64,000 nucleotides of DNA, from positions 461,495,827 through 461,559,826 of the forward strand of contig CM041777.1 of assembly GCA_023374045.1 (NCBI GenBank). Reading direction: 5' to 3'. Every line of letters starts with the position of its first letter. Position 1 is the stretch's first letter. The translations under genes and the position numbers were made by a program. The notes under the pieces are model-generated. The model had not been told where the DNA came from and did not search any database. It saw only the letters and a program-made list of their open reading frames with translations. Positions 2,399-32,879 of the stretch are shown here, piece by piece. This stretch comes from Limonium bicolor (Eukaryota > Streptophyta > Magnoliopsida > Caryophyllales > Plumbaginaceae).

Positions 2399-2418
2399 AT
2401 ATATATATATATATATAT
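2399..2418. repeat. (AT)n microsatellite
   Basis: Ten AT units directly after the hairpin array. The equivalent tract in the other A LTR (about 26847-26861) is shorter, as expected for a length-variable microsatellite. Confidence 0.9.
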
Positions 2419-4065: not shown

Positions 4066-4459
4066 GTACTCGAAGCTGACCACCGTTCGAGAGAGTAGGA
4101 CCGGGACTGCTATGTAAGCATGGGTAGTAGTATGGAAGGGATGGAACTTGTAATGTATTGGGAAATTTGGAAGTCCAAACTGTATCGGTAAAATTAAGGA
4201 TTGTAGTATACTCGGTATAGTATTGTATTGGAGTTGTATTTGAATTATGTTTTAGTATGCAAGGGGAAGTATTGTATTGTGTAGAGCACTCGGTATGTTC
4301 ATATTCATCAGACCGATAGTATGTAGTATTGTAACTTGCCTTGTTAGTCACGTGGGTGACTAACGGCATTGTACACCCGCCGTTGAGTAAGTAATGTCCG
4401 CTGCGAAGGTAAGTATGGTACGGTAATGACGGTATTAGCGGTAGGGGTGTTACAAAAAG

Positions 4460-4485
4460 TGGTATCAGAGCGATATCGCTCTGAT
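4460..4485 (+). promoter_or_regulatory. Primer binding site of element A within a palindrome
   Basis: TGGTATCAGAGC at 4460-4471 is the standard plant PBS for initiator tRNA-Met, five bases after the LTR end. Its 3' part lies in a perfect palindrome at 4464-4485 made of the arms ATCAGAGCGAT and ATCGCTCTGAT, so the PBS can pair with the sequence just downstream. Confidence 0.93.
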
Positions 4486-9584: not shown

Positions 9585-9589
9585 TAACC
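9585..9589. repeat. Target site duplication of element B (left copy)
   Basis: TAACC directly before the TG of the left LTR of B. The same TAACC follows the CA of its right LTR at 24149-24153, proving one insertion event into element A. Confidence 0.93.
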
Positions 9590-10047
9590 TGTAACACCCC
9601 AACCGCTAATCCTTCCATTATCCTCTAATCATTCCCATAACTACCTTACTCGCAGCGGAATACTTACCTACTCCCGGCGGGTGATACAACGCCGCTAGCC
9701 ATCCAAGGCTAACAAGGCTACTACTACTTACCGTGTCGGTCTGATGATTAGAATAAACTGCATACACACTACTTACTTTACAATGTCAATTACTTACATA
9801 CATTTGATTACCGAGTATACTGAGTATATGAATTACATTCCATGACTACTTCCCAAAAATGAAGAGTTTATACATCCTCTCCTTACTATCCAATCAAGGT
9901 TTCAATATCCAAAAAGGTGTACCACATGGTACACCGGCTACTCAAAAAGGCCTTAGCCGTGTACAACTCAGTACACCGTTTCAATCCTACAATCTACCCA
10001 AAAGGATCACATTCCGTCCTTACCCTTCCGTCACGCCTCGCGGGTAC

Positions 10048-10140
10048 CTGTGGAGTAAAAACATTCCCCCTAGGGGGTCAGCTTACGCTGCATATGATAA
10101 CCGCATACCCCGCGTGCTAGCGAGGGTACGCCAACTATTT
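10048..10140 (-). promoter_or_regulatory. Conserved LTR hairpin cassette (B 3' LTR)
   Basis: Reverse-strand counterpart of the cassette in element A. It keeps CAGCGTAAGCTG, CCCCCTAGGGGG, a TACCC...GGGTA stem and a terminal CCACAG|GTACC acceptor-like site. A second copy in the 5' LTR ends at about 20663. Confidence 0.65.
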
Positions 10141-11281
10141 GGTCGAGTACATGCGGTTCGTTTCATTCATACATACATGTTTTATACAATACAATTCAAT
10201 ACATTCCATACACAAGGCATACACACATACAATACATACAAGGAAGACAATTCAAGTCAACCATTCATACTTACCGAATACTCACCGCATTACGGAGATA
10301 CAATTCTCCAATACATACAAAGGTCTTGTTAGCCTCATTACACACCCGGGTTAATCGGGTGTTCAATACTTTTACTCCGGGTCAATGACTTACAATAGTC
10401 AAGACCAATACACATACAATACTTACTTCTTACATACTTTACTTCCAGTTAAGTCGGTATGACCTCTGGGCAGGGATTACTACATCCCACCACCGGGCTT
10501 TAGGGTGGCCCACTAATCCAGGATGCTACCCATTCAAGGGGATTGGTCCATGGAAAAGATTATAGCCAGGATTCGGATCCAACCTCTTGTGTTTCCTTAT
10601 CCTCACGCGTGGCCGAAACTATATCTGGCTTCTACTCATTCCATTATACTCATTACTCATGTTAGGAGTTAGGCTGTTAGGAATTAGTAGAAGTCCATAC
10701 CTTCCTTCCGTACATACATACAATACACAAGTACTCATACTTACACATACACTTCATTTCCATTCATACATTTCATGAATTATACAAACTAAATGTTCAA
10801 GAAGATTCAACAAGAACAAGATAGTTCAAACACAGTTAAGTGCAATAAAAGTCCGATTCATGCATTTATCTTATTGGTGATCACATAAGCACACAAATCG
10901 GGGTGACCAAGTTAGGATACAGGGCATGAAGAAATCATACCGTTCACCGACGTTTTCGTACTACCGGGTTCCTTCAACGTGCAACTATTCGATTCCTATA
11001 CATACATGAAGTAGTATGATCAATGATCCATTATTGATCTACTTACTCCTTCATTGATACTTTCTATTTATACTTACTACTTCATTACTTTCTTACTTGG
11101 TTATAGACCATTCTTTTCTTTACTACTTCTTACATTTGTCGCCTTACTCATTTACTTACCTTCCTACCATTATTGCTTCATTAATGGTGTATTACTACAT
11201 ACGTATGCTTATATTTGTATAGGCATATATGTATACATATGATAACTATAATCATATCATACAACATTTTTTTTTTGACTC

Positions 11282-11680
11282 GACCGAACTTGCAAGTCTG
11301 GTCGCAAGTTCGGTCCAAGTCAGTAGGTTACATCGCGTGAAAATTCCAGGGCCGACCGACCTTGCAAGTCCGGTCCCAAGGTCGGTCCATTCCAGTAAGT
11401 TTCATATGTGAAAATTTTAGCCCGACCGACCTTGCAAGTCCGGTCGCAAGGTCGGTCCATTCCAGTAGCTTGCATTACGGGCATTTTTCTGGCCGACCGA
11501 ACTTGCAAGTCCGGTCGCAAGTTCGGCCATTCCAGAAGGTTTCTGACGGGAGATATTTCTGGTCCGACCGAACTTGCAAGTCCGGTCGCAAGGTCGGTCG
11601 ACTCCAGAAGGCTTCCCGTCTTATAAATCTGGGCTCGACCGACCTTGCAAGTTCGGTCCTAAGGTTGGTCCGGCCCAGTA
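11282..11680 (-). repeat. Tandem array of six hairpin units in B 3' LTR
   Basis: Units begin near 11283, 11356, 11425, 11496, 11576 and 11638. Each combines ACCGAMCTTGCAAG and CGCAAGKTCGGT-type arms separated by TCCGGT. Related to the array of element A but in opposite orientation, as expected for an element on the minus strand. Confidence 0.9.
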
Positions 11681-13600
11681 CTTCAGTTTTAAAATCTGTT
11701 TTTGGGTGTTTTCTTTACCCATTGTTTCCCCAATCTGTACCAATACTTCCCTACATGTTTACCACTCATTTAGATGTTCTAAATCACCTTAATTCATCCA
11801 CCAAACTTGCTACTCAATTCCTACACAACTTACACCAATCTTCATCATCTCATTTCAACACTTACATTATTTTTCTTCACACTAATGCTACAGATTTTGG
11901 TTTTCCACATCATGTTACAGATTTTTACCTTAACTCTTATTCTCCAATACTCCCTCAACTAATGTCACTCTTGGCATCTTAAGTACACTAGTTCACATCC
12001 TAACTCCATCCCACTTACCAACTCATTTTCAAATCTGTTTCAAAACACTAAACTACTCCCATTATACTCTCCAAATACTTCCTCTTCTTAAACACTTAAG
12101 TCCTCTCATTCCTACACAAAATTTGACATAGTCTCCCCTATATTTTTAACATTCTCCACACATTATTTCAGCTCACACATTCATATTCTCACCACCTGTT
12201 TACACAACACTTCTTATACACATTCCAACACTACTTCAACAACATAAATTCCTGCACACATACACATACTACCCATGGTTTTCCCAAGCTTTTAAAACTC
12301 GTTTAAAACTTCAAAACTGTTACAACATCATTCCTCCTCATACTACAATATACTTACTACTCATTACTCAATTTATTACTCATTTTACTACTCCCAAAAG
12401 CTGTTACAATACTACATACAAAACTAGCTCAAGGTATAGGTGATTACCTTGTGTTTCTAGTTTTTCTTTTCTTTCTTGCCTTCTTCTTCCTTCTTTCCTT
12501 CTTCTTTGTTCTTCCTCACACAATGCACAATACTACAACCACCATACCAATACACACTACCATTTAACATTCATTTTTGCACTAACCCTAGAATTTAAAT
12601 GATTTAGGGTTTAGAGATGAGTATTACCTTCCAATGAATGGATGAAGTTCTTGACTAGCAAGAGAACAATATTCCTAGCCCAAGGAGGAGCCAAAATCGG
12701 CTGGAACAAAGAGGCACCAAACAAGGTTTTAGTTGAATCTCGTTTTGCCCACAAGGCCTAGAAAATGATAGGTTTTCAAGGATGTTTTTACCTCAAAATG
12801 ACAAGGAGGTGAAGGTGCTTCTAATGGTGGACTTGAATCTTCAAATGGAGAATACCCATAAAAACGAAAGTTGAGCTTTTGGATTTTTGAAAGGAGGGAA
12901 ATGTTCTCCTTTGCAAGGGGATTCCAATGGTACTAATTTTGTAATTTTTGGAGTAAGATTAATGGGTTAACAAGAGGAGAGAAGGTGGAAGTTGAGTGAG
13001 CTCCTTCCTTTCTCCATGGTTGTTGCAGGAGCAAGAGAAAAACAGAGAGAATAGAGAAGGAAGGGGGGGTGCCAACGTGAGAGGAAGAGGGGAGTGAGGA
13101 GAGAGAGTTTCTTTTTCTTTCTTTATTCCTTTTGTCTTCTTGTGAGTTACAAACAATAAAGAGAGTGAGTGAGAGGAGGGGAAATCGGTTCCCCCTACAC
13201 ACACATACACATTTTTACTTTTTATTTACAAAGTGGACACACTAAGTTTGTTTATTTGCATTCTCACCCCACAACTTCCCGGTTGTTACAGTTTTTACTA
13301 ACCGGTAACCGTTTTCCGGAATTTTCTCGTTTAGTTAATTTTATTGGTTCTAAAGCTCCACTAACATTTATTAGTGACAATTTAGTTGACCAAAATTGTT
13401 ACGAGTCTGTTTGACCCGCTTAAAGTCACGTTTTCCCAGTTTCCTCGAAAAACGCGCTTTAAGGTTCGTTTATGCTTTTAACCCATTTTAAAGGTCCGTT
13501 TTCTTCGGGATTTGTTCCCTCATATTTATTTAAGTGTAATTAAGCCTTTAAAATTATAATTAGCCTAATTAATCACTGTTTTTAATTACGGGGTATTTCA

Positions 13601-13634
13601 ATCTACCCCCCTTAAGGAACTTTGCCCTCAAAGT
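13601..13634 (-). promoter_or_regulatory. Polypurine tract and adjoining hairpin of element B
   Basis: Minus strand reads AACTTTGAGGGCAAAGTT (hairpin, 7-bp stem), then CCTTAAGGGGGGTAGAT, then the 3' LTR. The tract is the plus-strand primer for reverse transcription. The hairpin directly upstream recurs in A, C and D. Confidence 0.9.
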
Positions 13635-14119
13635 TGCTCAAGGTTACGGTTTACCATTTCTATTCATTTGGCAAGCCAATTGCCACAATACATTCTACTA
13701 CCACCTTACAAGGTGTTCACAATTCTTACACTACCAGCATACACAAATCAGGTACCATACATCATACTCAGTTCAATTGCCATACACAATACTCAATCCA
13801 TACACAATACTCCATTCAATTCGCACATTCCACAATACATTCACAATACACTTCACAATGTCATTCGTGTCATATACCGTACAATACAAATGCGTTACTC
13901 ATTACACACATACCATACTCATTGTACTACATACTGAATACTACTAGCACTACTTTGTGCCAATACAATACAATTAGCACTACATGTGCCAACCAAAATA
14001 CAATTACAATACATACATACTACGCAATGCTAACCCGAAGCAATGCAAAAGCAAAAAGGCTCTACCCCCCTTAAAAGGGGTACGCCCCGTACCCTCCGTG
14101 CTATACGGATACTAGACAT
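13635..14119 (-). other. Element B 3' untranslated stretch
   Basis: About 480 bases between the pol stop and the PPT hairpin. It is rich in ATACA/ACAATAC-type low-complexity repeats on the plus strand (13740-14030). No coding signal beyond short simple-sequence frames. Confidence 0.7.
14061..14080 (-). promoter_or_regulatory. Second, internal polypurine tract of element B
   Basis: Minus strand CCCCTTTTAAGGGGGGTAGA, about 48 bases after the pol stop and about 460 bases before the true PPT. The purine core is identical to that at the LTR border, and CCCCTT-TT-AAGGGG can form a small hairpin. Confidence 0.65.
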
Positions 14120-14290
14120 CTAGTCTACAAACAGATTCGGGTACTTCGCCTTCATGGCGTCCTCTAATTCCCAAGTCGCTTCCTCGACATTGTGGTTAGA
14201 CCACAAGACCTTCACCATTCGTACTGATTTATGGCGAGTGTCTCTTGTCTTTGTATCAAGGATTCACAGTGGAGTCTCGACATATCTCAT
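14120..14290 (-). CDS. Chromodomain-like C-terminus of element B integrase
   Basis: Minus strand encodes ILDTKTR...[16 protein letters not shown]...YPNLF, then a stop. The VKVLW...EEATWE...YP.LF pattern is the chromodomain-type tail of plant chromoviruses, which is thought to guide integration to particular chromatin. It follows the integrase core, separated by one frame change near 14270. Confidence 0.8.
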
Positions 14291-15548
14291 CGTTGGCTCT
14301 AGGGATAAGTGTTCGGGTTCTAATACATGAGAGGGATCTGCTATGTATTTCTTGAGTTGTGACACATGAAAGACATCATGGACACGCCCCAATTCTTCAG
14401 GCAATGCTAGCCTATAAGCTACGGCTCCAATCCTCTCGGTAATGGCATACGGGCCTACAAATTTTGGGCCCAGCTTGCCCTTTTGGCCAAATCGAAAGAC
14501 GCCCTTCATAGGTGAGACACGCAAGAACACTTGGTCGCCCACGGCGAACTCAAGGTCGCGTCGTCGCACATCCGCATAGGATTTCTGTCTATCTTGGGCT
14601 GCTTTCATATTTGCTCGGATTTGTTGTACCTCAGCTTGTACTTGTTCCAAATACTCCGGTCCTATGATGACCGCTTCGCTTGACTCATCCCAACACAACG
14701 GGGTACGACAAGGTCTACCATACAAAGCTTGGAACGGCGACATCTTAATCGAAGCATGGTAGCTATTGTTATATGAAAACTCGATAAGATGAAGCTTATC
14801 AATCCAGCTCCCCTGGAAGTCTAAGGCACATGCCCTAAGCATATCCTTTAGTGTCTGGATGGTCCTTTCTGTCTGACCGTCGGTCTGTGGATGGAAGCGG
14901 TGCTAAGCTTCAACTCAGTACCAACGCTTCCCGTGTTGCTCTCCAGTATCTCGAAAGAAATCTGGTGTCGCGGTCAGATACAATGGTTTTCGGGACTCCG
15001 TGGTGTCGATGATCTCCTTGTCGAATAGCTCCGCGAGCTTCGCCACCTTCCAGGTGTCCTTCATCGGTATGAATCGGGCAACCTTGGTGGCGATCGACTA
15101 CTACCCAGATCATGTTGAGTCCTCCCCTAGCAGGTGGGAGTCCAACAACAAAATCCATAGAGATATCGTGGAATTTCCACTCCGGAATGGGCATGGATTG
15201 CACCATTCCTCCCGGTCTTCGGTGCTCGAACTTCACCTTCTGGCATGTGAGACACCTCAGAACATACTCAGTCACGTCTGATTTCATTCCTGACCACCAG
15301 AAGTACCTCTTCATGTCTTTGTACATTTTAGAGGCTCCCGGATGGACATGCAATGTCGAACAATGTGACTCTCGCAGAATGCGATCCCTTAGCTCAGCAT
15401 TGCTTCGGGGGACGCATAATCTGCCATTCAAACGGATCAGACCATCTTCATGCAATTTGAAGTCGTACTTTCGGCTCTCGAAGGTACCATCTGTGATTTT
15501 CTGTCTGATCTCTGTGAAGTAAGGGTCGCTCAACTGAGCGTCTCGCAC
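14264..15548 (-). CDS. Integrase of element B (frameshifted)
   Basis: The N-terminal zinc-binding part has paired histidines ([10 protein letters not shown]) and CLTC. The core shows the first catalytic Asp in SMDFVVGLP, the second in IVSDRDTRF and the Glu in [10 protein letters not shown]. It continues through [19 protein letters not shown] and the C-terminal [19 protein letters not shown]...[13 protein letters not shown]. Frames change in the core around 15060-15110 and again between about 14850 and 14935, so the DDE set is present but split over frames. Family function: strand transfer of cDNA ends into host DNA. Confidence 0.88.
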
Positions 15549-15599
15549 CTCGTACCAAGCTAGAAGAAGCGAGTAGCGAGTAGCGAATGGAGCGAGTGT

Positions 15600-15997
15600 G
15601 CTCGACGACTCAGGGCGTCGGCTACAACGTTTGCCTTCCCTTCTTTATACTGGAGGTTGATGTCGTAATCGAGAGGAACTCCATCCACCTCCTCTGTCTT
15701 AGATTCATTCTTCTGGTGAATACATACTGCAAACTTTTGTGGTCGGAGTAGATGGTGATGCTTACCCCATAGAGATAGTGTCGCCATATCTTCAAGGCGA
15801 AGACAATGGCTCCTAACTCTAGATCATGTGTCGGGTAATTCTCCTCATGCTTTTTCAGCTGGCGAGAGCATAGGCTACTACCTTGCCATGCTGCATGAGT
15901 ACGCATCCCATGCCCTTGCCCGATGCATCACAATACACCTCAAATCCCTCTGTGCCCTCTGGAAGTGTGAGAATTGGCGCTGAGGTCAATGAGTCTT
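15600..15997 (-). CDS. RNase H of element B (frameshifted)
   Basis: Recognisable by [18 protein letters not shown] (catalytic Glu region), [24 protein letters not shown] (catalytic Asp) and [11 protein letters not shown] at the C-terminus. The frame changes near 15725 and again upstream near 15900. It degrades template RNA during reverse transcription. It sits between RT and integrase with no gap, as usual for Ty3/gypsy. Confidence 0.85.
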
Positions 15998-16870
15998 TTA
16001 GTTCTGGAAGGATACCTCGCACTCGCTTGTCCATACAAACGGTGCATCTTTCTTCATCAATGACGTCATGGGCTTAGCGACTTTTGAGAAGTCCTTTACA
16101 AACCTCCGGTAATAACCGGCTAAACCAAGAAAGCTCCGGATATCGGTAACAGTCTTAGGTCTAGGCCATGATCGCACTGCTTCGATTTTGGATGGATCTA
16201 CTGAAATGCCCACGCTCGAGATGACATGACCGAGGAATGATACCTGATCTAGCCAAAACTCGCATTTGGAGAACTTCGCATACAGCTGGTTCTCGCGCAG
16301 TGTCTCAAGTACTCTTCTCAATGGTTTTCATGCTCTTCTAGTGACTTCGAATACACAAGGATGTCGATGAATACTACTACTGAAGTGTCCAGCTGATCAC
16401 TGAATAACCGATTCATTAGGTCCATGAATTTGGCTGGTGCGTTAGACAAACCGAATGGCATCACCGTGAATTCGTAGTGGCCATATCTTGTTCGGAATGC
16501 TGTTTTCTCAATATCTTGCTCTTTGATAGCAATTTGGTGTATCCGGATCGGAGATCAATCTTAGAAAGAGACGATGCCCTTCAACTGATCGAACAGGTCG
16601 TCGATGCGTGGCAATGGATTTGTTCTTTACTGTGACCGCATTCAATTCGCGGTAGTCGATGCAGAGGCGGAGACTACCGTCCTTCTTCTTCACGAAGAGG
16701 ACCGGTGCTCCCCAGGGTGATACGCTCGGGCGTATAAACCCTTTGTCGAGTAGATCATGTAGTTGCTCTTTGAGTTCTGCCATTTCTGCTGGTGCCACGG
16801 TATGGTGCCCTAGCAATGGGACCAGTACCCGGTAAGGTCGATTTCAAACTCTACCGCTCTCTGTGGTGGC
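15998..16870 (-). pseudogene. Reverse transcriptase of element B, missing one catalytic Asp
   Basis: Motifs in order: [53 protein letters not shown], the MPFGL...[11 protein letters not shown] block, the active-site strand, then SFLGHVIS and the thumb/connection region [11 protein letters not shown]. The active site normally reads FIDDILVYS. Here (about 16356-16369) it reads FIDILVYS, lacking one Asp codon through a 3-base loss. Frames also shift near 16560-16600 and 16320. As written the enzyme would be inactive. Confidence 0.88.
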
Positions 16871-16899
16871 ATACCAGGTAGCTCTTTCGGAAATACATC

Positions 16900-17478
16900 A
16901 GGGAATTCTGAGACTACTGCTACATCATCACTGAACTCTGGATCTCCTCCAGGTCTTGCACATGGCATAAATACACTTCATGTCCTTTCTGAGCTCCCGA
17001 TACATTGCCATAGCGGAGATGACTGTAGTTGAAGGCTCTCTCGGTCTCTGGCGGTATGAAACAGTGACCCCAGATGGACTCTTGAGCAGCAATCGGTGCT
17101 CGGCGCATAGGATCCGTCCTTGTGCCGCTCCAACCAGTTCATTCCAATTATCAAGTCGAATCCCAATCCGTTGAATTCAATGAAGGAAATGGGAAACGCT
17201 TCACCTTTGATTTGAATGGTGGCGGTGTGGTAATACTTAGTACACTTTACCCGCTCCTTCGACGGGAGAGTAACCAAGAAATTTGGTAGCTCATCTGCGT
17301 CTAGCCCCAACCTTGTAGCGAATGATGGCGATACAAAGGTGTGAGAGGCGCCGGAGTCGAATAATACTGAGGCTTCGATGCCGTTTACTGGGAATGTTCC
17401 CGTTAGAATGGTGCCGCTCTTGCCGGCTTGTTCTTCGGTGAGGATGCTCAGGTTACCTTCGGTACCGAGTCCACAAAC
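16900..17478 (-). CDS. Aspartic protease of element B and link to RT
   Basis: Open from the candidate acceptor at 17478. GTFPVNGIEASVLFDSGASH carries the retropepsin DSG (codons near 17360), followed by FATRLGLDADELPNF, KYYHTATIQIKGEAFPISF and GFDLIIGMNWLERH, where LIIGMNWL is the usual flap-distal strand. A frameshift follows near 17130; beyond it the peptide continues as the normal linker toward EFPDVFPKELPGMP before RT. It cleaves the Gag-Pol precursor. Confidence 0.88.
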
Positions 17479-17631
17479 CTATGATTCATTGCATTCAGTG
17501 ATAGATTATAAGTAAAGATGGTGGAACGCAAGTGGAATTTAATAACCAACACTGCTTTTATTGAATAACCAACCATCATACATACTGTGTCTCTAATACA
17601 CGTTACTACTGGATTACATGCTACTACAAGA
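17479..17631 (-). other. Spacer between AlkB stop and protease acceptor, with AATAAA
   Basis: About 150 non-coding bases in element B. On the minus strand an AATAAA (17557-17562) lies about 70 bases after the AlkB stop, and a splice-acceptor-like CATAG ends the spacer at 17479. It could serve as 3' UTR for an AlkB transcript and as intron for a pol transcript. Both roles are inferred. Confidence 0.55.
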
Positions 17632-18367
17632 TTAATACTTTCTAAAGGTAAGGTTCAGGCGTCCTGGTTTCATGTGTGTGGCATTGATTATTGCCGGTGG
17701 TGCCGTATTCAACTTGATCTTCTGGATCCCGTGATACAGCAACCTTGATTTTCCACCCATGATTAGAACATCTCCTGATCTCAATACCAATTTCTCTGCG
17801 AGGTCCACACGCTTCTCCTCGCTATACAAAAATACGGCGTCATCACCAATGGACCAAGACACTACGGGCACTCCTAGTTCAAGAGATTCCGCTGTCTCGT
17901 CCTTGTCTTGGTGTAGCCAAGTCGTCCTTCTTTCTCATAGAAGTTGACAATACATAGAGGTCTGCTTCAAGTGCAGGGACTGGTTCATCTTCACATTGTT
18001 GTGTGATTTCTACAGCTTGAGTGACAAGCATTTGGAATTTAGGGGGTATTGCTGGAGGTGTTGCTCCATCTCCTGCTCGCGTCGTTTGGTATGTCTTGGT
18101 ATAAGGGTTATCCTTTCCCAAGCACATCATTTTCAGCTTCATTGTAGCTCCACCGGGGAATTCGGGTGTATAAAATCCTCCTGGACCCATTCCTAACTCG
18201 TTGCATCGTCGGATGATTGAAACTTGTGCTTCGGGTGTCAGGTATCCTTTTAATAAATCATACCTGGGCGGATGACCTGACACTGATTGTTGTCGAAGTG
18301 GTGAGTGGCGATGTCGGTCTCTTCATGAGGTGAGTTGAAGGTATTGGGTAACAGATAAGGAATTTCC
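17632..18367 (-). CDS. AlkB-type Fe(II)/2-oxoglutarate dioxygenase (ALKBH1-like) inside element B, frameshifted
   Basis: Lies between the gag zinc knuckles and protease, where Ty3/gypsy elements normally have nothing. The N-terminal half reads HPPRYDLLKGYLTPEAQ, GMGPGGFYTPEFPGGA, KLKMMCLGKD and DGATPPAIPPKF. Then come CIVNFYEKEGRLG, the iron-binding HxD as HQD (17905-17913), PVVSWSIGDDAVFLYS, SGDVLIMGGKSRLLYHGI with the distal His (17731-17733), and a C-terminal PGRLNLTFRKY with the 2-oxoglutarate Arg (17641-17643), ending at a stop like host ALKBH1 proteins. Two frame changes (about 17955-17962 and 17914-17918) and one in-frame TGA (18323-18325) break it. The family removes methyl groups from nucleic acid bases; plant and animal ALKBH1 members have been linked to N6-methyladenine in DNA and m1A in RNA. 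The substrate here is unknown. The start is set at the splice-acceptor-like CTTAG|GG. Confidence 0.85.
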
Positions 18368-18554
18368 CTAAGGTGGTAAATTACATCTAGTGTGAGTTCT
18401 AGGCTTACTAATTCATTTCATGCTCAATACATACTTCCATGTTACTTACTCATGCTCAATTTCATACTTCAAGTACTTACGCATTCATGCTTTCATTCAT
18501 ACAATTATTAATACTTAGTCATGCTCTTCAAGGATTAAAGGTTACGGTAGTTAC
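18368..18554 (-). other. Candidate intron 3 of element B (gag to AlkB)
   Basis: 187 bases with donor CAG|GTAACT (18554) and acceptor ACCTTAG|GG (18368) on the minus strand. AT-rich, with stops in the frames on either side. Both joined exons are in phase 0. Splicing is inferred from sites and frame only. Confidence 0.6.
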
Positions 18555-18895
18555 CTGGGCCGGACTTAGTCCCGGTCCCGTCACGGTCAATGATGTGTAA
18601 GGCCGGCTGCCTCTGCGGTGCGCCCTTCTGCGGACCTCGGGATCCCTGTCCCTGTGAGGTGTGCTGGGCATGAGCATCGCCAGATGCAACCTCCTTGCCT
18701 CACGCTGCTTGTAGCCCTGATAGTTGCCCTTGGGCTTCGAGTTCTCTAGGCATGCATTAGCACGGTGCCCTGGCTTCTGGCAAGTGTAGCAGCGGATCTC
18801 CCTTCCTTGGCAATCTGTGCCGGGATGATCCTTGTTGCAGTTACGGCATATGTAGCTGCGGCCATCAGATTGGTTTTCCTGGCCAAATCCAGAAC
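18555..18895 (-). CDS. gag: Element B gag exon 3: zinc knuckles
   Basis: Contains CRNCNKDHPGTDC (C-X2-C-X3-H-X4-C, slightly short) followed by a canonical knuckle CYTCQKPGHRANAC (C-X2-C-X4-H-X4-C), then a basic Arg-rich tail ending GPGLSPAQ at a CAG|GTAACT donor. This is the nucleocapsid part of Gag, which binds genomic RNA. It begins at a convincing acceptor, with TTGCTAAC branch-like sequence upstream. The donor is in phase with both the AlkB exon and the protease exon. Confidence 0.85.
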
Positions 18896-18986
18896 CTATA
18901 GCTTCCAAGTTAGCAAGGTTCGGTATACTTACAATACTCCACATACATACTAATTCACAAGTGTACTAATTCGGTTTGGTTCTTAC
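18896..18986 (-). other. Candidate intron 2 of element B (within gag)
   Basis: 91 bases, donor AGGG|GTAAGAACC, acceptor GCTATAG|GTTC with CTTGCTAAC about 20 bases upstream as a branch-like site. Removing it joins SQPYR to GSGFGQ in frame. The size is typical of plant introns. Confidence 0.7.
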
Positions 18987-19247
18987 CCCTGTAGGGCTGA
19001 GACCTCAGTGGCTTCGCTGCCACTGGTGCGGTGTAGGCAATCTGTAATCAGCTGTGCCTTCTCAGCATGGGCACCGCCGTCTCCGGAAGTGTTCTTTGAT
19101 GGGAATGCTTCCCCTTCCTTTTCTTCCAAGGTTTGGATTGGTTTTGGTCATCGGAGGGTTTTTGTTGCTTGCCTTGCGCTTGAGCGCTTGATCTTCATCC
19201 CTCAGCTGGCATGTGATCTCCACTCGGGAGGCAGCATGGTAACACTC
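18987..19247 (-). pseudogene. gag: Element B gag exon 2: linker after capsid
   Basis: Begins ECYHAASRVEITCQLRDED, the helix that normally ends the gag core, then a Lys-rich linker and APVAAKPLRSQPYR leading to the knuckles. A frame change near 19150-19170 and a TGA at 19048-19050 interrupt it. The homology is to the Gag region between the retrotrans_gag core and the zinc knuckles. Confidence 0.7.
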
Positions 19248-19333
19248 CTGAATTACTTAGGCGTTAGGTTACACTTACATACGGGAATACTAATTCACAT
19301 TACTCATGGCTTTTAAGGGTTCAACTTGTTTAC
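19248..19333 (-). other. Candidate intron 1 of element B (within gag core)
   Basis: 86 bases, donor CTTCAG|GTAAACA, acceptor AATTCAG|GAG on the minus strand, with a CCTAACG branch-like site. Reading through gives VNKLNP and a stop. Removal joins RFTSLQ to ECYHAAS in phase 0, restoring the usual gag core order. Confidence 0.7.
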
Positions 19334-19991
19334 CTGAAGGGAGGTAAACCGTGTGAAGCCCATGCCATACCGGAGTCGATGGCTCAATCCGCCGTAGAAG
19401 CGGTCGACCAAGACTTGGCCGGTATACCCAAGGTCGGGTAGAAGTCTGAGAAGAGAGGTGAAGGTGCGGTAATATTCATCAACCGTCATCTTCTCGGTCA
19501 TTTTCAGTGCATCGAGCTCAAGCCTTTTCTTGGTCTTGACATGCTCGGGGTAATACTTAGATCGGAGGAGAGAGGTGAATGCTTCCCATCCGAATGCAGG
19601 ATCAGCTACGTGCTCGGCCTTAATGAGCTTCCACCAGTCCATAGCCGCGTCTTTGAGGTAGTACGCAGCTATCCTCACTCGAACTCCAGCGGGAGTCTCA
19701 AGTGTCTCGAAGGCCGTCTCCATTTCAGAGAGATAAGCCTCGAGCTTGGGGGGTCGCTCTCGCCTCTAAAGCATGGAGGTCGAAGGTTGGCGACTGCTTT
19801 TACCCAATTGGTCTCACGGGGATGAGGTGGGTCGGGCTGCTGCTGCTGTGCTGCTGCTGAGTTTGTTGTACAGCAGTGATTACATCCGGTAGCATCTGTG
19901 CTACCGTGGCGGCGACGATTTTAGCTATCGTCTGCGCGCTTGGTCCGTCACTAGTCCCTCCTCTGGGACGACCTGGACCTCGTCCTGACAT
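19334..19991 (-). pseudogene. gag: Element B gag exon 1: N-terminus and capsid core, frameshifted
   Basis: ATG at 19989-19991 opens MSGRGPGRPRGG, a basic start. A Gln/Ser repeat (19839-19862) follows, then RETNWVKAVANLRPPCFRGESD and the retrotrans_gag core: YLKDAAMDWWKL, WEAFTSLLRSKYYPEHVKTKK and MTVDEYYRTFTSLLRLLPDL. Frames change in the Gln repeat and at a six-base G run (19748-19753 on the plus strand). It forms the virus-like particle shell. The start is chosen because it is the first ATG after the PBS leader with Gag-like composition. Confidence 0.85.
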
Positions 19992-20200
19992 CTAAACAAG
20001 TGTGGATTACATTAGATGTCATGATACTATGACCTCATGGTCTTGATTCAAACAATGGTATCGTCTTTGCAGACGTTAAGGGTATCCGTTGTTAACAACG
20101 GTAGTTCCTAGTTAGGTTTCTAAGTATCCGTCTTAAGACAGTTGAAATCCTAACTCGGTAATCACTACACTTAGGATTCTAATCATCAGAGCGAGACTTC
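19992..20200 (-). other. Element B leader between PBS and gag
   Basis: About 210 bases of untranslated leader. It includes short imperfect repeats of ATCCTAACTCGGTA/GGAACTACCGT type and the 3' arm of the PBS stem-loop (20185-20194). Confidence 0.6.
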
Positions 20201-20212
20201 ACTCTGATACCA
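20201..20212 (-). promoter_or_regulatory. Primer binding site of element B
   Basis: Minus strand TGGTATCAGAGT, matching the tRNA-iMet PBS except for the last base. It is five bases from the 5' LTR end. ATCAGAGTGA can pair with TCGCTCTGAT just downstream (G-T allowed), so it sits in a stem-loop like those of A and C. Confidence 0.9.
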
Positions 20213-20217
20213 CTTTT

Positions 20218-23200
20218 TGTAACACCCCAACCGCTAATCCTTCCATTATCCTCTAATCATTCCCATAACTACCTTACTCGCAGCGGAATACTTACTACTC
20301 CCGGCGGGTGATACAACGCCGTTCCATCCAAGGTTAACAAGGCTACTACTACTTACCGTTCGGTCTGATGATTAGAATAAACCATACACACTACTTACTT
20401 TACAATACCAAATACTTACTTACATTTGATTACCGAGTATACTGAATATACGAATTACATTCCATGACTACTTCCAAAAATGAAGAGTTTATACATCCTC
20501 TCCTTACTATCCAATCAAGTTCAATATCCAAAAAGGTGTACCACATGGTACACCGGCTACTCAAAAGGCCTTAGCCGTGTACAACTCGGTACACGTTTCA
20601 ATCCTACTACTACCAAAAAGAATCACATCCGTCCTTACCCTTCCGTCACGCCTCGCGGGTACCTGTGGAGTAAAAACATTCCCCCTAGGGGGTCAGCTTA
20701 CGCTGCATATGATAACCGCATACCCCGCGTGCTAGCGAGGGTACGCCAACTTTGGTCGAGTACATGCGGTTCGTTTCATTCATACATACATACATGCTTT
20801 ATACATACAATTCAATACACATACACAGGCATACATACACATACAATACATACAAGGAAGACAATTCAAGTCAACCATTCATACTTACCATACTCACCGC
20901 ATTACGGAGATACAATTCTCCAATACATACAAAGGTCTTGTTAGCCTCATTACACACCGGGTTAATCGGGTGTTCAATACTTTTACTCCGGGTCAATGAC
21001 TTACAATAGTCAAGACCAATACAATACAATACTTACTTCTTACATACTTTACTTCCAGTTAAGTCGGTATGACCTCCGGGCAGGGATTACTACATCCCAC
21101 CACGGGCTTTAGGGTGGCCCACTAATCCAGGATGCTACCCATTCAAGGGGATTGGTCCATGGAAAAGATTATAGCCAGGATTCGGATCCAACCTCTTGTG
21201 TTTCCTTATCCTCACGCGTGGCCGAAACTATATCGGGCTTCTACTCATTCCATTTTACTCATTACTCATGTTAGGAGTTAGATGTTAGGAATTAGTAGAA
21301 GTCCATATTCTTCCATACATACATACAATACACAAGTACTCATACTTACACATACACTTCATTTCCATTCATACATTTCATGAATTATACAAACTAATGT
21401 TCAAGAAGATAACAAGAACAAATAGTTCAAACACAGTTAAGTGCAAAAAGTCCGATTCATGCATTTATCTTATTGGTGATCACATAAGCACACAAATCGG
21501 GGTAACCAAGTTAGGATACAGGGCATGAAGAAATCATACCGTTCACCGTTTCGTACTACCGGGTTCCTTCAACGTGCAACTATTGATTCCTATACATACA
21601 TGAAGTAGTATGATCAATGATCCTATTGATCTACTTACTCCTTCATTGATACTTTCTATTATACTTACTACTTCATTACTTTCTTACTTGGTTATAAACC
21701 ATTCTTTTCTTTACTACTTCTTACATTTGTTGCCTTACTCATTTACTTACTTCTACCATTATTCTTCATTAATGGTGTTACTACATATTATGCTTATATT
21801 TGTATAGGCATATATGTATACATATGATAACTATAATCAATAATAAAACATTTTTTTTGTTTGACTCGACCGAACTTGCAAGTCCGGTCGCAAGTTCGGT
21901 CCAAGTCAGTAGGTTACATCGTGAAAATTCCAGGGCCGACCGACCTTGCAAGTCCGGTCCCAAGGTCGGTCCATTCCAGTAAGTTTCATGTGAAAATTTT
22001 AGCCCGACCGACCTTGCAAGTCCGGTCGCAAGGTCGGTCCATTCCAGTAGCTTGCATTACGGGAATTTTTCTGGCCGACCGAACTTGCAAGTCCGGTCGC
22101 AAGTTCGGTCCATTCCAGAAGGTTTCTGACGGGAGAATTTCTGGTCCGACCGAACTTGCAAGTCCGGTCGCAAGGTCGGTCGATTCCAGAAGGTTTCCCG
22201 TCTTGTAAATCTGGGCTCGACCGACCTTGCAAGTTCGGTCCTAAGGTCGGTCCGGCCCAGTACTTCAGTTTTAAAATCTGTTTTTGGGTGTTTTCTTTAC
22301 CCATTGTTTCCCCAATCTTACCAATACTTTCCTACATGTTTACCACTCATTTAGATGTTCTAAATCACCTTAATTCATCCACCAAACTTGCTACTCAATT
22401 CCTACACAACTTACACCAATCTTCATCATCTCATTTCAACACTTACATTATTTTTCTTCACACTAATGCTACAATTTTGGTTTTCCACATCATGTTACAG
22501 ATTTTTACCTTAACTCTTATTCTCCAATACTCCCTCAACTAATGTCACTCTTGGCATCTAAGTACACTAGTTCACATCCTAACTCCATCCCACTTACAAC
22601 TCATTTTCAAATCTGTTTCAAAACACTAAACTACTCCCATTATACTTCCAATACTTCCTCTTCTTAAACACTAAGTCCTCTCATTCCTACACAAAATTTG
22701 ACATAGTCTCCCCTATATTTTAACATTCTCCACACATTATTTCAGCTCACACATTTATTTCACCACCTGTTTACACACACTTCTTAACATTCCAACACTA
22801 CTCAACAACATAAATTCCTGCACACATACACATACTACCATGGTTTTCCCAAGCTTTTAAAACTCGTTTAAAACTTCAAAACTGTTACAACATCATTCCT
22901 CCATATACAATATACTTACTACTCATTACTCAATTTATTACTCATTTTACTACTCCCAAAAGCTGTTACAATACTACATACAAAACTAGCTCAAGGTATA
23001 GGTGATTACCTTGTGTTTCTAGTTTTCTTTTCTTCTTGCCTTCTTCTTCCTTCTTTCCTTCTTCTTTGTCTTCCTCACACAATGCACAATACTACAACCA
23101 CCATACCAATACACACTACCATTTAACATTCATTTTGCACTAACCCTAGAATTTAAATGTTTTAGGGTTTAGAGATGAGTATTACCTTCCAATGAATGGA

Positions 23201-24148
23201 TGAAGTTCTTGACTAGCAAGAGAACAATATTCCTAGCCCAAGGAGGAGCCAAAATCGGCTGGAACAAAGAGGCACCAAACAAGGTTTAGTTGAATCTCGT
23301 TTTGCCCACAAGGCCTAGAAAATGATAGGTTTTCAAGGATTTTTACCTCAAAATGACAAGGAGGTGAAGGTGCTTCTAATGGTGGACTTGAATCTTCAAA
23401 TGGAGAATACCCATTAAAATGAAAGTTGAGCTTTTGGATTTTTGAAAGGAGGGAAATGTTCTCCTTTGCAAGGGGATTCCAATGGTACTAATTTTGTAAT
23501 TTTTGGAGTAAGATTAATGGGTTAACAAGAGGAGAGAAGGTGGAAGTTGAGTGAGCTCCTCCTTTCTCCATGGTTGTCGCAGGAGCAAGAGAAAAACAGA
23601 GAGAATAGAGAAGGAAGGGGGGGTGCCAACGTGAGAGGAAGAGGGGAGTGAGGAGAGAGAGTTTCTTTTTCTTTCATTATTCCTTTTGTCTTCTTGTGAG
23701 TTACAAACAATAAAGAGAGTGAGTGAGAGGAGGGGAAATCGGTTCCCCCTACATACACATACACATTTTTACTTTTTATTTACAAAGTGGACACACTAAG
23801 TTTGTTTATTTGCATTCTCACCCCAACTTCCCGATTGTTACAGTTTTTCCTAACCGGTAACCGTTTTCCGGAATTTTCTCGTTTAATTAATTTTATTGGT
23901 TCTAAGCTCCACTAACATATTAGTGATAATTTAGTTGACCAAAATTGTACGAGTCTGTTTGACCCGCTTAAAGTCACGTTTTCCCGGTTTCCTCGAAAAA
24001 CGCGCTTTAAGGTTCGTTTATGCTTTTAACCCATTTTAAAGGTCCGTTTTCTTCGGGATTTGTTCCCTCATATTTATTTAAGTGTAATTAAGCCTTTAAA
24101 ATTATAATTAGCCTAATTAATCACTGTTTTTAATTACGGGGTATTTCA
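20218..24148 (-). mobile_element. Element B, 5' LTR
   Basis: Pairs with 9590-13600 in the same orientation. It ends next to the PBS, which identifies it as the 5' copy. It holds the promoter of the element on the minus strand; no TATA box is called confidently. Hairpin array at about 21864-22258 and hairpin cassette from about 20663. Confidence 0.95.
21864..22258 (-). repeat. Tandem array of six hairpin units in B 5' LTR
   Basis: Same six-unit array as 11282-11680, with small length differences in the linkers. Confidence 0.88.
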
Positions 24149-24153
24149 TAACC
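24149..24153. repeat. Target site duplication of element B (right copy)
   Basis: TAACC directly after the right end of B, identical to 9585-9589. Confidence 0.93.
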
Positions 24154-24230: not shown

Positions 24231-26437
24231 TGAAATACCCCGAACTTAAATATGGTGATTAGAATATTCTAATATAGTATTTAAGGGCCTAATAGTGCCT
24301 AAGTAATTTTGGTAAGGAAAATAAATCCAAAAGAAATGAGAAAAACGCTTAGAAAGCGGAAAACGCTAAAACAAGCGTTAAATAACCATAGGAGGTACGA
24401 GACCTCGGTTATAGTATCGTAAGGATTCCTAAGGCTTATTCATGCCTAATTAGTATACGGGAACGATTCCCGAAGAAAACGGATGCAAGAAATGTATTAA
24501 AACGCTAAAAGAGCTTTAGCGCACGTTTTTCGAGGAAACCCGAAAACGTGGTTTTAAGTGGTCAAACAAACCCGTAAAAATTATAAATCATTACATAATA
24601 ATTATTAAGCCTTATGGAAGCTTAATAACCAATAAAAATAAAGAAACGAGAAAATTTTGGAAAACGGACCCGGTTAGTGAATGGTATCAAAACTGGGTAA
24701 ATTAACGAGCGTTTTCTGTAAAAGACGAAAAACTGCTCCAGCTTAACAGTATAGTGGGGCCGGTTTTTATAGGGTACTAATACCCTCTCACACACTCAAT
24801 TAAATATTACTCCCCCACACACACTAGGAGACAAGAGAACTAAAGCAAAAAGTAACAAATACTTGCCTTTTCCCTCTCTCTCCTCCCTCTCCTCTTCTTT
24901 TCTTGCGTGAGAACCCCCTCCATCCTGATTCCTCTCTTCTCTTTCCTCTGGTTGGGGACGATTTTGAAGAGCTCAAAATGGCTCCCATGGCTTCTCCACT
25001 TATACTCCATGTTCTAGCTTCATTAAAGCCCCAAATCGAAAATAAATTGCATATTCTTCCCTCATCAAGCTCTACATTTCTATCTTTTCAAAATTCCAAA
25101 TGGAGGAGTTTGACCTCCATGGGTTTTGGGCATTTGAAGAGTAAACCACATATTTTTGAAGCTTGGAGTCTCCTCTTCCACTTAAGGTAAAAAGATTCAA
25201 GAGAAAAACTCATTTTCTCCATTTCCATGCCTTGGCCAATTTTGGCTTCTTTTAATGCCTTATTCTCTTCTTTGTTTGAGCTTGGTTCAACTCTCCAATG
25301 GTGGAGGAACCCTCCTTTGTATTCAAGACTTAAAAACCTCTCTTGAAGCTCCAAGGTAAAACCCTAACTAATGGCATTAAAGTCTTTCATTGAATTAAAG
25401 TTATCCAATGGGTTAAGGAGTTTAATTGTATTTATTTGTGTGTTTTGAATGTTGGCTTGGGGTTGGGTAACCCCATTGACCAACTTGACCGAGAATGAAG
25501 AAGGGGAGAGGAGGAGGACTCAAAGGAAGAAGTGTGATCTTAAGGTAAGAAAAACCTATCTCAATGCTTAATCTAATGCATTAGTGTAGTGGGAATGGGT
25601 AAACAAATAAAAGAACTTAAACCATTGTATTAGTATTGTAATTGTGGATGTTTGAGTACTAGTGAGCAAGTGTGTGAATTTGTAGGCCTTAGAGCCAAAC
25701 GAGGTATGTGTATATTAGTAATGCTATTTGAGGAGTAATGATGTATTGGTATTGTATTGAGGAAGCATTTGTGTATTAGAATTTTGTATGTGTGCTGGTA
25801 GGACCCTTGTTGGGTGTGGCTAGCTTTAGGTTGAATTTGATGAGAGGATGTGTATTTGAGGATGTGAGAAAAGAAGGTGGGCTATGGCCAAAGTTTGGTA
25901 GGAATTGTGCATTAAAGAATGACTTGGTGATGGGAGAACCAAGGGTGTATTGGACTTAGTAAAGATGTTAATGACCATGGATGGTAATTGTGGTATGAGG
26001 GTATTAGGATGTAAAATCTGTGGTAAAAGAGGTACCAAAATGCATGGTGGGACTAGGAAGAAATTGGTGTGCAAGATTTAGTAAATTGATGTTGAACTTG
26101 GGCATTGATAGTGTAGATGCTTTGAAATGAACTGGCATGGTAAAGGTAAGGTAATTAGGATGCTAGGAATGGCAATGATTGAGAAAGTATTGGATGGGAG
26201 AATTGAATTGTAAAATCTGTAGCATAGGTGTGACAAAAACTGTTACATGTGTTGTAGAGAAGAAGTGAGGAAATTGTGTAAGTTGTTTGATGGGTTTAGT
26301 AAAGGATTTGGGGGATGAACCAAGGCAATTTTGAGGGCCTAAGTAGTGTTAAAATATGTGGGATTAAGTGTAGGAACAATGGGGAAGTAATGGGTAAAGG
26401 AGAGGACTGAAAACAGAAATGAAAACTGAAGTACTGG

Positions 26438-26838
26438 GTCGGACCGACCTTGGGACCGAAATTGCAAGGTCGGTCGAGCCCAGATTTGCAAAGGACGGAA
26501 ACCTTCTGGAACGGACCGACCTTGGGACCGGACATGCAAGGTCGGTCGGCCAGAGGAATTTCCCGTCATGCAACCTACTGGAATGGACCGACCTTGTGAC
26601 CGGACTTGCAAGGTCGGTCGACTCAAAAATTTTCCGTCTTGTAAGCTACTGGAATGGACCGACCTTGTGACCGGACTTGCAAGGTCGGTCGGGCAAAATT
26701 TTCCGTCAAGTAACTCACTGGAATGGACCGACCTTGGGACCGGACTTGCAAGGTCGGTCGGCCCTGTAATTTTCCAGCGTGATTCCTTACTGACTTCGAC
26801 CGACCTTGGGACCGACCCTGGGTAAGGTCGGTCGAGTC
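26438..26838 (+). repeat. Tandem hairpin array in element A 3' LTR
   Basis: Six units matching 1990-2392. A few single-base changes, such as TTGTGACC for TTGCGACC, are shared between two units. Confidence 0.88.
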
Positions 26839-28409
26839 AAAACAAAAAATATATATATATATGATTAGAGTTATCATATGTATATAAGTATATGCCTATA
26901 CACATAGGTATGTGTAAATGTAGTAATACACCATTAATGGAAAGAAAGGATGAGGAAATGCACATGTGAGTAAGGAAACAAGTTAAGGAAGTTGTAAGTA
27001 TAAGAACATTAAGTGTACCGGGATAACGGGGTAAGTAAGGGAGTAGTAATTACTTGTATATCGTATGAGCATAGTATTAATAACAATGTTGGAAACATTA
27101 TCAGTGGAACAAGTGTGAACCAAGGAACAAGGGAACACATGGTAAAGCTAACTCCGGTGCAAGGTATGATTTTCTCATGCCCCGTATGCTAACCGAGTTA
27201 CTTGATTGATTTGTGTGCTGTATGCCGGCTAATCAAGACTAAAGCATGAAAACGGTTTATTGCCTTTCATTGTATGCCTGCTGTATGTTGTATGAGCTAA
27301 CCTTTCTTGAATTGAATGTGTGGCTTCACTTAGTGCGTAGATCGACTCCTAGATGGGTCTTGTTGTGTAGCGACTCGTAGTAAGAGTCATAATGTGAGCT
27401 AATGGAACCATAGCAACGGACTAAATTACGAATCAACGAACGATAGCACAAACCAACAAACTCACTAGAATGTGAGGGAGCGTACGGGAGTAATAACCTC
27501 CCGATAATGGTAGAAGGACCGAAATGAATAATCCACAAACAATAAGTAGTGGAAGTATATAAGTAACCTCTATTAGAGGAATTAATCTTGGTGCAAGACA
27601 TGAACCATGAGAGTAGTAGAGAACGATGAGGGATCTCCAAACCCCTTAGCAACTAGTCGACCCATTATGAGAGGACTCGACTGATGTAAGTATGTCCCGA
27701 ACATGTGAGTATTCGATACGTTGGGCAAACCCTTAAATCTGAGGATACTAGTCGGTTGTAATTCCCTAAGCTAGTGGAGGTTATCAAGAGAGATACTTCT
27801 AGGCTAATCCCTGAGATTGTATATACTCTGAGAGAAGAGTGCTGGGAATTTGAGTAGTCCGGTATAAACGGACATTGAGTATTTTAGGAGCTAAGCGTAT
27901 AGCCCTCGTATTGTAGGTCCGGTGGCAAGACTTGTGTATGACCCCGCCCGGTGGCCAAAGTAATGAGTACTGAGTATTGCGTATGTATGAGTAAAGTAAG
28001 GAGTAAGGAGTAAGAAGCGAGTATGAGTATGAGTACCGAGTATTGAGTATGTATGAGTAAGCATTGAGTAATGAGTACGTATGAGTAAGTATGGAGCATT
28101 GAGTAGTGAGTATGTATAAGCGTAGTAACAAGTATGGAGTAAAGAGTGTGTACGAGTAAGGGTATAAGCATGGAGTGATGAGTATGTAAGAGTAAGGCAA
28201 TGAGTAGCAAGTAAGGAGTAGGTATGAGCAGAGTAATGAACAACGGGCAACCCCGAAGTAGCAACGAGAATGTATCTAATATGAACAGTCGACTATCGAA
28301 TTGTCTTCCGCAGTAGATAGTGAACCTTGTGTGTGTGTATGTACGCATTGAGAATGTATTGTGTAGAAATTGTATGTACGTTTGCTTGTAAAATGAACTC
28401 CATGTATAT

Positions 28410-28510
28410 CCGACCCAAAGTAGTCGGCGTACCGCGGTTAGCACGCGGTATATGCGAATTTCATATGCAGCGTAAGCTGACCCCCTAGGGGGACCGTTTT
28501 TAGTGTGCAG
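28410..28510 (+). promoter_or_regulatory. Conserved LTR hairpin cassette (A 3' LTR)
   Basis: Second copy of the cassette at 3965-4065, with the same stems and the same terminal CAG. Confidence 0.65.
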
Positions 28511-28898
28511 GTACTCGAAGCTGACCACCGTTCGAGAGAGTAGGACCGGGACTGCTATGTAAGCATGGGTAGTAGTATGGAAGGGATGGAACTTGTAATG
28601 TATGGGAAATTTGGAAGTCCAAACTGTATCGGTAAAATTAAGGATTGTAGTATACTCGGTATAGTATTGTATTGGAGTTGTATTTGAATTATGTTTTAGT
28701 ATGCAAGGGGAAGTATTGTATTGTGTAGAGCACTCGGTATGCTCATATTCATCAGACCGATAGTATGTAGTATTGTAACTTGCCTTGTTAGTCACGTGGG
28801 TGACTAACGGCATTGTACACCCGCCGTTGAGTAAGTAATGTCCGCTGCGAAGGTAAGTATGGTACGGTAATAACGGTATTAGCGGTAGGGGTGTTACA

Positions 28899-31769: not shown

Positions 31770-32879
31770 GTCTACCCCCCTTAAAAAGACTTCGTCCCGA
31801 AGTCGCTTATCAAATAGGTAAGTATATAAATGTATAACTACCCACTATTCCCATAATGAATATCTATGTGATATATCTTTACACACATCGTATTGTGCCT
31901 ATACAGCACATAGCCATCACTTTGTGGCGTTAGTTCAATCATATATGGATATAGGTGATCCATCAGCACCATCATTTCCTATCAGTTCTACAAACCCTGA
32001 CAACTCCCGAGGCGTCCATAACATACCATCGTTCCACATTCCATATCTAATGATTCATTTTGTATGTAGACGATACCATATGTAATCATTCTATAAAGCA
32101 ATATGAATACATATATCACAAGTAGCATAAGATAAGTACTACACACTGGTGTAAATACAACATTCAAACAAGTATCTCATAAGATACATACATACAAGTG
32201 TACATCACACATAAACATACCAAACAACGTACGCCCCGCGTACCAAACATAACCAACAAAACCAATTCACTGTATGCCATGCATACTAAACAAACAAACC
32301 CTCGTATGCCCCGAACCACCAATCTTTGTAGCAATGCGTACGAAACAACCAAACTTAGTGCACACATGTGCACAGCCAAGAGCTCTACCCCCCTTAAAAA
32401 GGGGTTACGCCCCCGTACCCCACAGTATACCACAGCCACTCACCAAGGAGCGCTGGATACTTGGCTCTCAAAGAGTTCTCCAACTCGTGGATTATCCTCA
32501 TATCAGAGAGACGGGTATGACTCTAGCCCTTCTGGGCTCCACAATATAAAAGGTGAGGCACTGATCTATTTGTGCTCTCTCCCGAATTCGTTCTAATGGG
32601 CCCACTCACTCCACATGAGGTGCAGACCCATGACACATAGGCTCAGTTTGCCTCTTTTCATTGTTGGGTATCCCCTCATTGGGATCACTATAGCATACAT
32701 GCGTGTCTCTCTCACTGATATTCAGCTTGAGGTGTAATATGACATTGGCTACTATTAGTACTTAGTGCTCTTTGCACTTGTCTTTGTAATATTAAGACGT
32801 ACCAGCCTATATGTCCACAAAGATGATGTTTTGTCATCTATGTCCCTGGTGGTTCTGTTCCAGAGTAACACACTGTTTT
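31770..32879 (-). mobile_element. Element D internal domain, 3' part, with PPT
   Basis: Minus strand has GACTTCGGGACGAAGTC (hairpin), TTTTTAAGGGGGGTAGAC (PPT) and then the LTR. The rest aligns loosely with the 3' internal domains of A and C on the opposite strand. No recognised protein; short frames around 32164-32596 share no motif. Confidence 0.75.
32383..32405 (-). promoter_or_regulatory. Second, internal polypurine tract of element D
   Basis: Minus strand AACCCCTTTTTAAGGGGGGT followed by AGAGC, about 600 bases before the true PPT. Same core as in A, B and C. Confidence 0.6.

Follow-up and report, generated by a model that had tools for sequence, protein, structure and literature searches.

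How does a plant retrotransposon hold and express an AlkB-family dioxygenase between its gag and pol genes? The question is raised by a 64,000-nucleotide stretch of the Limonium bicolor genome (GCA_023374045.1, contig CM041777.1, positions 461,495,827 to 461,559,826; hereafter the window), in which a complete Ty3/gypsy element bounded by long terminal repeats (LTRs) carries an AlkB block on the minus strand between the gag zinc knuckle and the protease. From the sequence comparisons described below, we consider it fairly probable that the element represents an old, still recently active Limonium chromovirus lineage with an ALKBH1-type alternative exon, and that the resulting Gag-demethylase would act on the RNA of the element. 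The preliminary description of this DNA had placed an ALKBH1-type demethylase between gag and pol of a chromovirus. The motifs it listed (GPGGFY, MMCLGK, HQD within LHQDKDE, SGDVLIMGGKSR, YHGI and LNLTFR) are all found on the minus strand, and its limits for the block proved exact, running from the first base after an AG acceptor (18367) to the stop codon (17632).

In the window copy, the AlkB block lies in three different frames. When the open AlkB frame of another copy (L016) was used as a tblastn query, three pieces together covered positions 18363-17635, at 50% over 36 columns, 63% over 105 and 81% over 94. The expected Pfam match to AlkB was obtained for the open copies L016 and L012, with 168 bits each against PF13532, but not for the window copy, whose single scored piece (17879-18283; 23.2 bits, E-value 9e-5) lies below the cut-off of 31.2. 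Among 26 aligned proteins, the HxD..H residues H153, D155 and H213, which we take to be the iron ligands, are invariant, and R237 and R243, presumably the 2-oxoglutarate-binding arginines, are nearly so. The frameshifts of the window copy are not accepted as proof of decay. Small gaps number 58 in its 5' LTR and 4 in its 3' LTR (MAFFT), and the indels in the 5' LTR are probably assembly indels; some frame breaks in this copy may thus be assembly errors.

The block is present at many loci. A PF13532 search of the L. bicolor genome (2.92 gigabases) scored at least 150 copies of 38,325 first-look candidates. All 150, the best-scoring ones and not including the window copy, exceed the cut-off, and 149 of them have no stop within the matched AlkB domain. 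With an ALKBH1-like protein of Saponaria as the query, at least 124 further loci were listed at other places, of 47,295 candidates, the two lists being compared by eye for overlap. Six of the latter (L052-L057) were inspected; all have like flanks up to the start of pol, and open frames near L052 and L054 correspond to gag, AlkB and protease in that order. A single chance insertion of a host fragment, an outcome that the preliminary description had allowed for, is ruled out by the scored copies in several subfamilies. We refer to L016/L032-like copies as type A, to L012/L031-like copies as type B, to L052, L053, L055 and L057 as type C, to L054 as type D and to L056 as type E; the window copy is set apart. 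As a separate observation, four AlkB copies lie at a spacing of about 10.1 kilobases in C1:497439466-497470353, which looks like a tandem element array sharing LTRs. The same genome also has, on an unplaced contig, a maturase K frame with 95% identity to a Limonium carolinianum entry over 90% of the query.

The window element has Pfam matches to gag, CCHC, protease and integrase. Reverse transcriptase (RT), RNase H (RH) and integrase (INT) were found in two further copies (L031 and L032), where they follow the protease (PR) in the order PR-RT-RH-INT. The cut-off for the chromodomain (Chromo, PF00385) is 25.1 bits; of these two copies, L031 exceeds it (25.6 bits) and L032 falls short of it (20.6 bits). 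The corresponding region of the window copy is interrupted by stops. The domain order and the chromodomain of the other copies indicate that the element is a chromovirus, as had been claimed; Tekay would be our guess for its clade. The two LTRs of the window element differ at 58 of 3923 aligned columns in MAFFT (44 mismatches by BLAST), and partial LTRs of four type A copies diverge by 0.87-2.33%; the type B copy L031 gave no LTR match within the stretch examined. Under an assumed rate of 1.3e-8 per site per year, the four type A insertions would be less than one million years old and the window copy about 0.6 million years old.

Beyond what had been described before, gag contains predicted introns, and the last of these seems to offer a choice between the AlkB exon and the pol exon. 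When types A and B and the window copy are aligned, three gaps appear in gag. Each is bounded by GT and AG at matching positions, the gap interiors barely align, and the T content is 28-37% in the gaps versus 12-15% in exons 2 and 3. The type A acceptor of intron 2 was placed from the intron-less copy L061. Exon 3 ends with one spare nucleotide. Each of the blocks that follow, AlkB and pol, starts after an AG with two nucleotides that finish a glycine codon. The last intron has two acceptors, at AlkB and at pol, both in frame with gag; in the window copy the pol acceptor is out of frame. Among the 30 best loci, the donor pattern is present in 29 (L030 has no donor, L019 has unrelated sequence upstream, and a CCAGGTA inside AlkB was not counted), and 28 and 27 loci show the patterns for the AlkB and pol acceptors, respectively; all patterns had been drawn from sequences already inspected. 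The AlkB acceptor is at the same place in all six loci of types C, D and E, for which the donor and the pol acceptor were read by eye. In L052 (type C) intron 1 is absent and exon 1 runs directly into exon 2, with gaps 2 and 3 kept.

The intron model predicts a 31-nucleotide junction between exon 3 and pol. Searched with up to three mismatches, this junction occurs at 14 places in the genome, five of them exact, and the reversed pattern, used as a control, occurs at none. Four of the 14 loci, all exact, were inspected (L058-L061). In L058 and L061, all three introns are gone, with breaks at the predicted sites, and L061 has a single open frame through the gag exons into pol over the 450 codons examined. 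In L059 and L060, introns 1 and 2 are present and only intron 3, with AlkB, is gone. The junction loci look as reverse-transcribed spliced RNAs would, and these genomic footprints of complementary DNA (cDNA) thus support, as DNA evidence, a splice that joins gag to pol and leaves out AlkB, although some of the 14 loci may descend from one event. The three gag exons of L061 are 94-98% identical to those of the type A copy L032, thus the lack of AlkB in L061 would most simply be derived, not ancestral. Splicing from gag to AlkB, which would give a Gag-AlkB protein, we infer from the reading phase, the conservation of the acceptor, the selection on AlkB, and the lack of a Met codon before the catalytic core in L012.

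If the AlkB block is functional, then its coding sequence would be expected to show constraint. The ratio of nonsynonymous to synonymous change (dN/dS) was estimated in 29 of the 30 best-scoring loci (L007, with an early stop, was left out) and in the window copy, which was not picked by AlkB score; the figures thus cover types A and B and the window copy. Type A pairs (n = 300) have a mean dS of 0.122 and a mean dN of 0.018, and type B pairs (n = 6) a ratio of 0.11. Between one type A and one type B copy, 0.72 of the synonymous and 0.18 of the nonsynonymous sites of AlkB differ, and for the window AlkB compared with type A the ratio is 0.23 in the N part and 0.13 in the C part. These low values support purifying selection on AlkB in the copies measured, which had been anticipated. 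The divergent copy L036 was also compared with seven type A copies. The difference is 6.2% in AlkB and 7.0% at the start of pol, 14.9% in exon 2 and 13.3% in exon 3, and 26%, 33% and 11.5% in introns 1, 2 and 3, respectively. Third codon positions account for 525 of 861 AlkB differences and 252 of 478 exon 3 differences. In pol they make up about 100 of 474 differences, no excess, with L032 as the reference, which has indels there, and 161 of 387 with L034 as the reference and L032 omitted; the third-position excess in pol is weak or absent and is blurred by indels. Exon 1 diverges by 23% within type A, due to L040 (56%, not homologous there) and to L041 and L042 (16%); L037 and L038 were aligned but enter none of these averages.

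The nearest solved structure to the element AlkB is rice OsALKBH1 (PDB 5xoi/5xeg), followed by E. coli AlkB. OsALKBH1 acts on N6-methyladenine in DNA (6mA). The element AlkB resembles it in fold, in the catalytic domain (48-52% identity) and in an FDIC motif upstream of the core that is common to many plant ALKBH1-like proteins; it differs in lacking the long N-terminal part of many host proteins and in forming a clade of its own outside the sampled hosts. By sequence and fold closeness to OsALKBH1, the AlkB is assigned to the plant ALKBH1 subfamily, in agreement with the type first proposed. In trees, a single clade next to the ALKBH1 proteins of plant hosts unites the sampled element AlkBs and five database proteins, with support of 98/97 in the tree with 31 host proteins and 94/93, just under the mark of the tool, in the tree with five element types and 26 host proteins. 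The expected relationship to plant ALKBH1 proteins was thus recovered as one element clade beside the hosts, but not as nesting among them: the clade is sister to all 26 sampled host proteins (host group 98/87), and likewise to all 31, in trees sampled outside the ALKBH5 type. Its stem is long, so the sister placement may be an artefact. Since the element AlkBs form one clade, several independent captures into the subfamilies are not favored. The genome search with the Saponaria query did not find a host ALKBH1 gene of Limonium among the 124 places listed, those inspected being element copies, and one scan of viral contigs found no relative. Among named plant proteins, a 478-amino-acid protein of Artemisia annua outscores the others against the element-AlkB profile; it is 47% identical to the first profile row and perhaps has two tandem AlkB domains.

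AlkB domains are known from other mobile sequences. Plant RNA viruses with an AlkB, which are mentioned in PMC9289625, are like the Limonium element in that a mobile element carries the domain. They are RNA viruses, and their domain sits inside the replicase. Contrary to the preliminary description, which knew of no report for this element type, an AlkB gypsy family has been published for the orchid Phalaenopsis, although with another enzyme type, lineage and position. Passages of that paper describe Gypsy_Pa_2799 as a Tat/Ogre-like element whose ALKBH5-like ORF2 demethylates N6-methyladenine (m6A) RNA in vitro, and report that only two Phalaenopsis were positive among 121 angiosperm genomes screened for the orchid domain (PMC9289625). 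Both are plant Ty3/gypsy LTR elements with a captured, conserved AlkB-family gene in many copies. As given in those passages, the orchid element is sister to Ogre within Tat and has a tRNA-Arg primer site, a dual RNase H, a single gag-pol open reading frame (ORF) and the ALKBH5-like gene in a separate ORF2 (PMC9289625), whereas the Limonium element has a chromodomain, the TGGTATCAGAG primer site, an ALKBH1-type exon between gag and pol, and gag introns. Membership in the orchid type is not supported by the ALKBH1-type fold ranking, the chromodomain or the gag/pol position. The Limonium case looks like a separate AlkB capture, because the enzyme subfamily, the element type, the position and the expression mode all differ.

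Plant LTR elements are generally intron-free, with Ogre and EVADE named as exceptions in the passages of PMC12786077, and their additional ORFs lie mostly between pol and the 3' LTR, according to parts of PMC7264820. Ogre is likewise a plant gypsy element with a spliced intron, but passages of PMC6317226 place that intron between gag-pro and RT, whereas the Limonium element has introns within gag and where gag meets pol, three in all, together with a coding alternative exon. In EVADE, alternative splicing to a short GAG similarly balances Gag against Gag-Pol; it is, however, a Ty1/copia element, and the passages of PMC12786077 on it do not mention a captured enzyme. The open-licence literature searched held no report of an ALKBH1-type or chromovirus AlkB capture, or of a chromovirus with more than one gag intron. 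Gypsy elements with an AlkB are already known, and it is the expression strategy that may be new.

In the mechanism we propose, the intron-bearing gag pre-mRNA would be spliced from the donor behind the zinc knuckle to the pol exon, skipping AlkB and giving Gag-Pol, or, alternatively, from the same donor to the AlkB exon, where the frame ends, giving a Gag-AlkB protein. Through its Gag part, the demethylase would reach the particles and the RNA of the element that encodes it, and there it would remove N6-methyl (or N1-methyl) adenine that would otherwise mark, sequester or stall this RNA or the cDNA. Passages of PMC12786077 describe m6A removal as a critical step in freeing ONSEN RNA from stress granules and in its mobilization. 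Plausible, if short of probable, is the fuller proposal that a splicing choice between Gag-Pol and Gag-demethylase supplies a particle-borne enzyme that frees the packaged genome of methyl-adenine, either ahead of reverse transcription or in its course, and that this defence against host epitranscriptomic control has been retained through a deep radiation of subfamilies.

Other explanations were weighed against this proposal. A role in repair of alkylation damage to genomic RNA or cDNA in the particle, or action on host RNAs in trans, rather than regulatory m6A erasure, appears somewhat unlikely. E. coli AlkB is the next structural neighbor, and passages of PMC9289625 mention repair as the role postulated for virus AlkBs; however, the nearest relatives are plant ALKBH1 proteins, and an ALKBH1-like protein of tobacco is reported to be an m6A demethylase (PMC12736721). 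The AlkB could also be translated separately from Gag, as a free cytoplasmic protein with a start codon of its own, from RNA that is unspliced or spliced in another way, and act on any RNA, as in the orchid element, whose ORF2 is given as a separate ORF in passages of PMC9289625. Type A copies have a Met just ahead of the core (MEQCQVIQPG), and L052 has several. Yet L012 has none ahead of its core, the acceptor and phase fit gag exon 3 in the types examined, and the FDIC region common to many host proteins lies 5' of those Met codons, so that we regard a free enzyme as unlikely.

It is also very improbable that the AlkB-less junction loci are relics of an ancestor without AlkB and introns, both being gained later. 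To our knowledge, ordinary chromoviruses have one uninterrupted gag-pol frame, and the missing intron 1 of L052 makes intron gain conceivable. Against this stand the close identity of the L061 and L032 gag exons, the sharing of AlkB by far older types (A versus B), and gaps that fall at predicted splice sites with both full and partial intron removal. That AlkB is a non-functional passenger amplified with the element is hardly credible despite the frameshifted window copy: dN/dS is low within and between types A and B and the window copy, nearly all of the 150 best-scoring copies (selected by score) have no stop in the domain, and a single AlkB clade (94/93) spans the five types.

Several observations nevertheless weigh against the alternative-exon reading itself. 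Intron 3 is no more divergent than exon 3 between L036 and the seven type A copies (11.5% and 13.3%), and among those seven, exons 2-3 and introns 2-3 diverge about equally (2-3%), with intron 1 at 7%. The AlkB frame is open from acceptor to stop in 25 of 30 loci, a smaller share than the 149 of 150 counted for the matched domain only. Judged by eye, AAAG is a weak-looking acceptor for AlkB in type A, and type A loci and L052 contain internal Met codons able to start a free enzyme. Of the 30 type A and type B loci, 21 have AATAAA behind the AlkB stop (type A, 20 of 26; type B, 1 of 4), and five of the six type A loci without it had no correctly placed AlkB stop to look behind; in types C-E it was seen in none of six loci, so that a private poly(A) site for AlkB is weakened as a general feature.

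What looks like a second, separate AlkB capture (ALKBH1 versus ALKBH5) would amount to convergence and would suggest that methyl-adenine is truly contested between plants and retrotransposons. It also makes testable whether the RNA of the element is a target of its enzyme, and which mark is removed. The multi-intron structure is unusual in itself among plant LTR elements, and the precise spliced genomic copies would be a natural record of how splicing is balanced against intact genomic RNA.

The features of the AlkB-carrying element are listed in Table 1; its primer-binding site is presumably of the initiator tRNA-Met type.

Table 1. Features of the AlkB-carrying LTR element, in window coordinates
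Feature	Position	Strand	Evidence or remark
Complete chromovirus-type LTR element with AlkB block	9590..24148	-	LTR pair by BLAST and target-site duplication
5' LTR	20218..24148	-	BLAST, MAFFT
3' LTR	9590..13600	-	BLAST, MAFFT
Target-site duplication, 5 bp, TAACC	9585-9589 and 24149-24153		flanks of element 9590-24148
Primer-binding site TGGTATCAGAG, just inside 5' LTR	20202..20212	-	sequence
gag exon 1 (capsid), in multiple frames in window copy	19334..19991	-	PF03732, 61.4 bits on 19313-19723
Intron 1, 86 nucleotides, GT..AG	19248..19333	-	alignment; homologous gap removed in L058 and L061, absent in type C L052
gag exon 2	18987..19247	-	alignment of copies
Intron 2, 91 nucleotides, GT..AG	18896..18986	-	alignment; homologous gap removed in L058 and L061
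gag exon 3, including the CCHC zinc knuckle	18555..18895	-	PF00098, 22.4 bits; alignment
Intron 3, short form, 187 nucleotides, ends at AlkB acceptor	18368..18554	-	donor CCAG/GTAA, acceptor TTAG/GG
ALKBH1-type AlkB exon from acceptor to stop, in three frames in window copy	17632..18367	-	motifs, Pfam, tblastn
T-rich stretch from AlkB stop to pol acceptor, contains AATAAA	17479..17631	-	alignment
pol exon, several broken frames	13997..17478	-	Pfam matches to protease and integrase; L032 pol pieces match as far as 13997 by tblastn

The AlkB element is nested in a plus-strand LTR element, whose outer LTRs (1-4460 and 24453-28904) are 98.3% identical by BLAST. The outer element has the same primer site TGGTATCAGAG at 4460, its LTR shares an 800-nucleotide stretch (about 79%) with the LTR of the AlkB element, and tblastn with gag, pol and AlkB pieces gave no match in it; it is perhaps a non-autonomous partner of the AlkB element. 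Two more nested LTR pairs, at 32879-46469 (mismatch 2.0%) and 29715-49179 (3.6%), gave no gag or pol match by tblastn. Arrays of a unit of about 71 nucleotides occur in LTRs at 11281-11671, 21867-22253, 26441-26775 and 1993-2327; the unit, which contains a near-palindrome (GACCGACCTTGCAAG...GGTCGGTC), is common to different elements. A tandem array of a 189-bp unit in 5.4 copies, a possible satellite, lies at 61857-62882.
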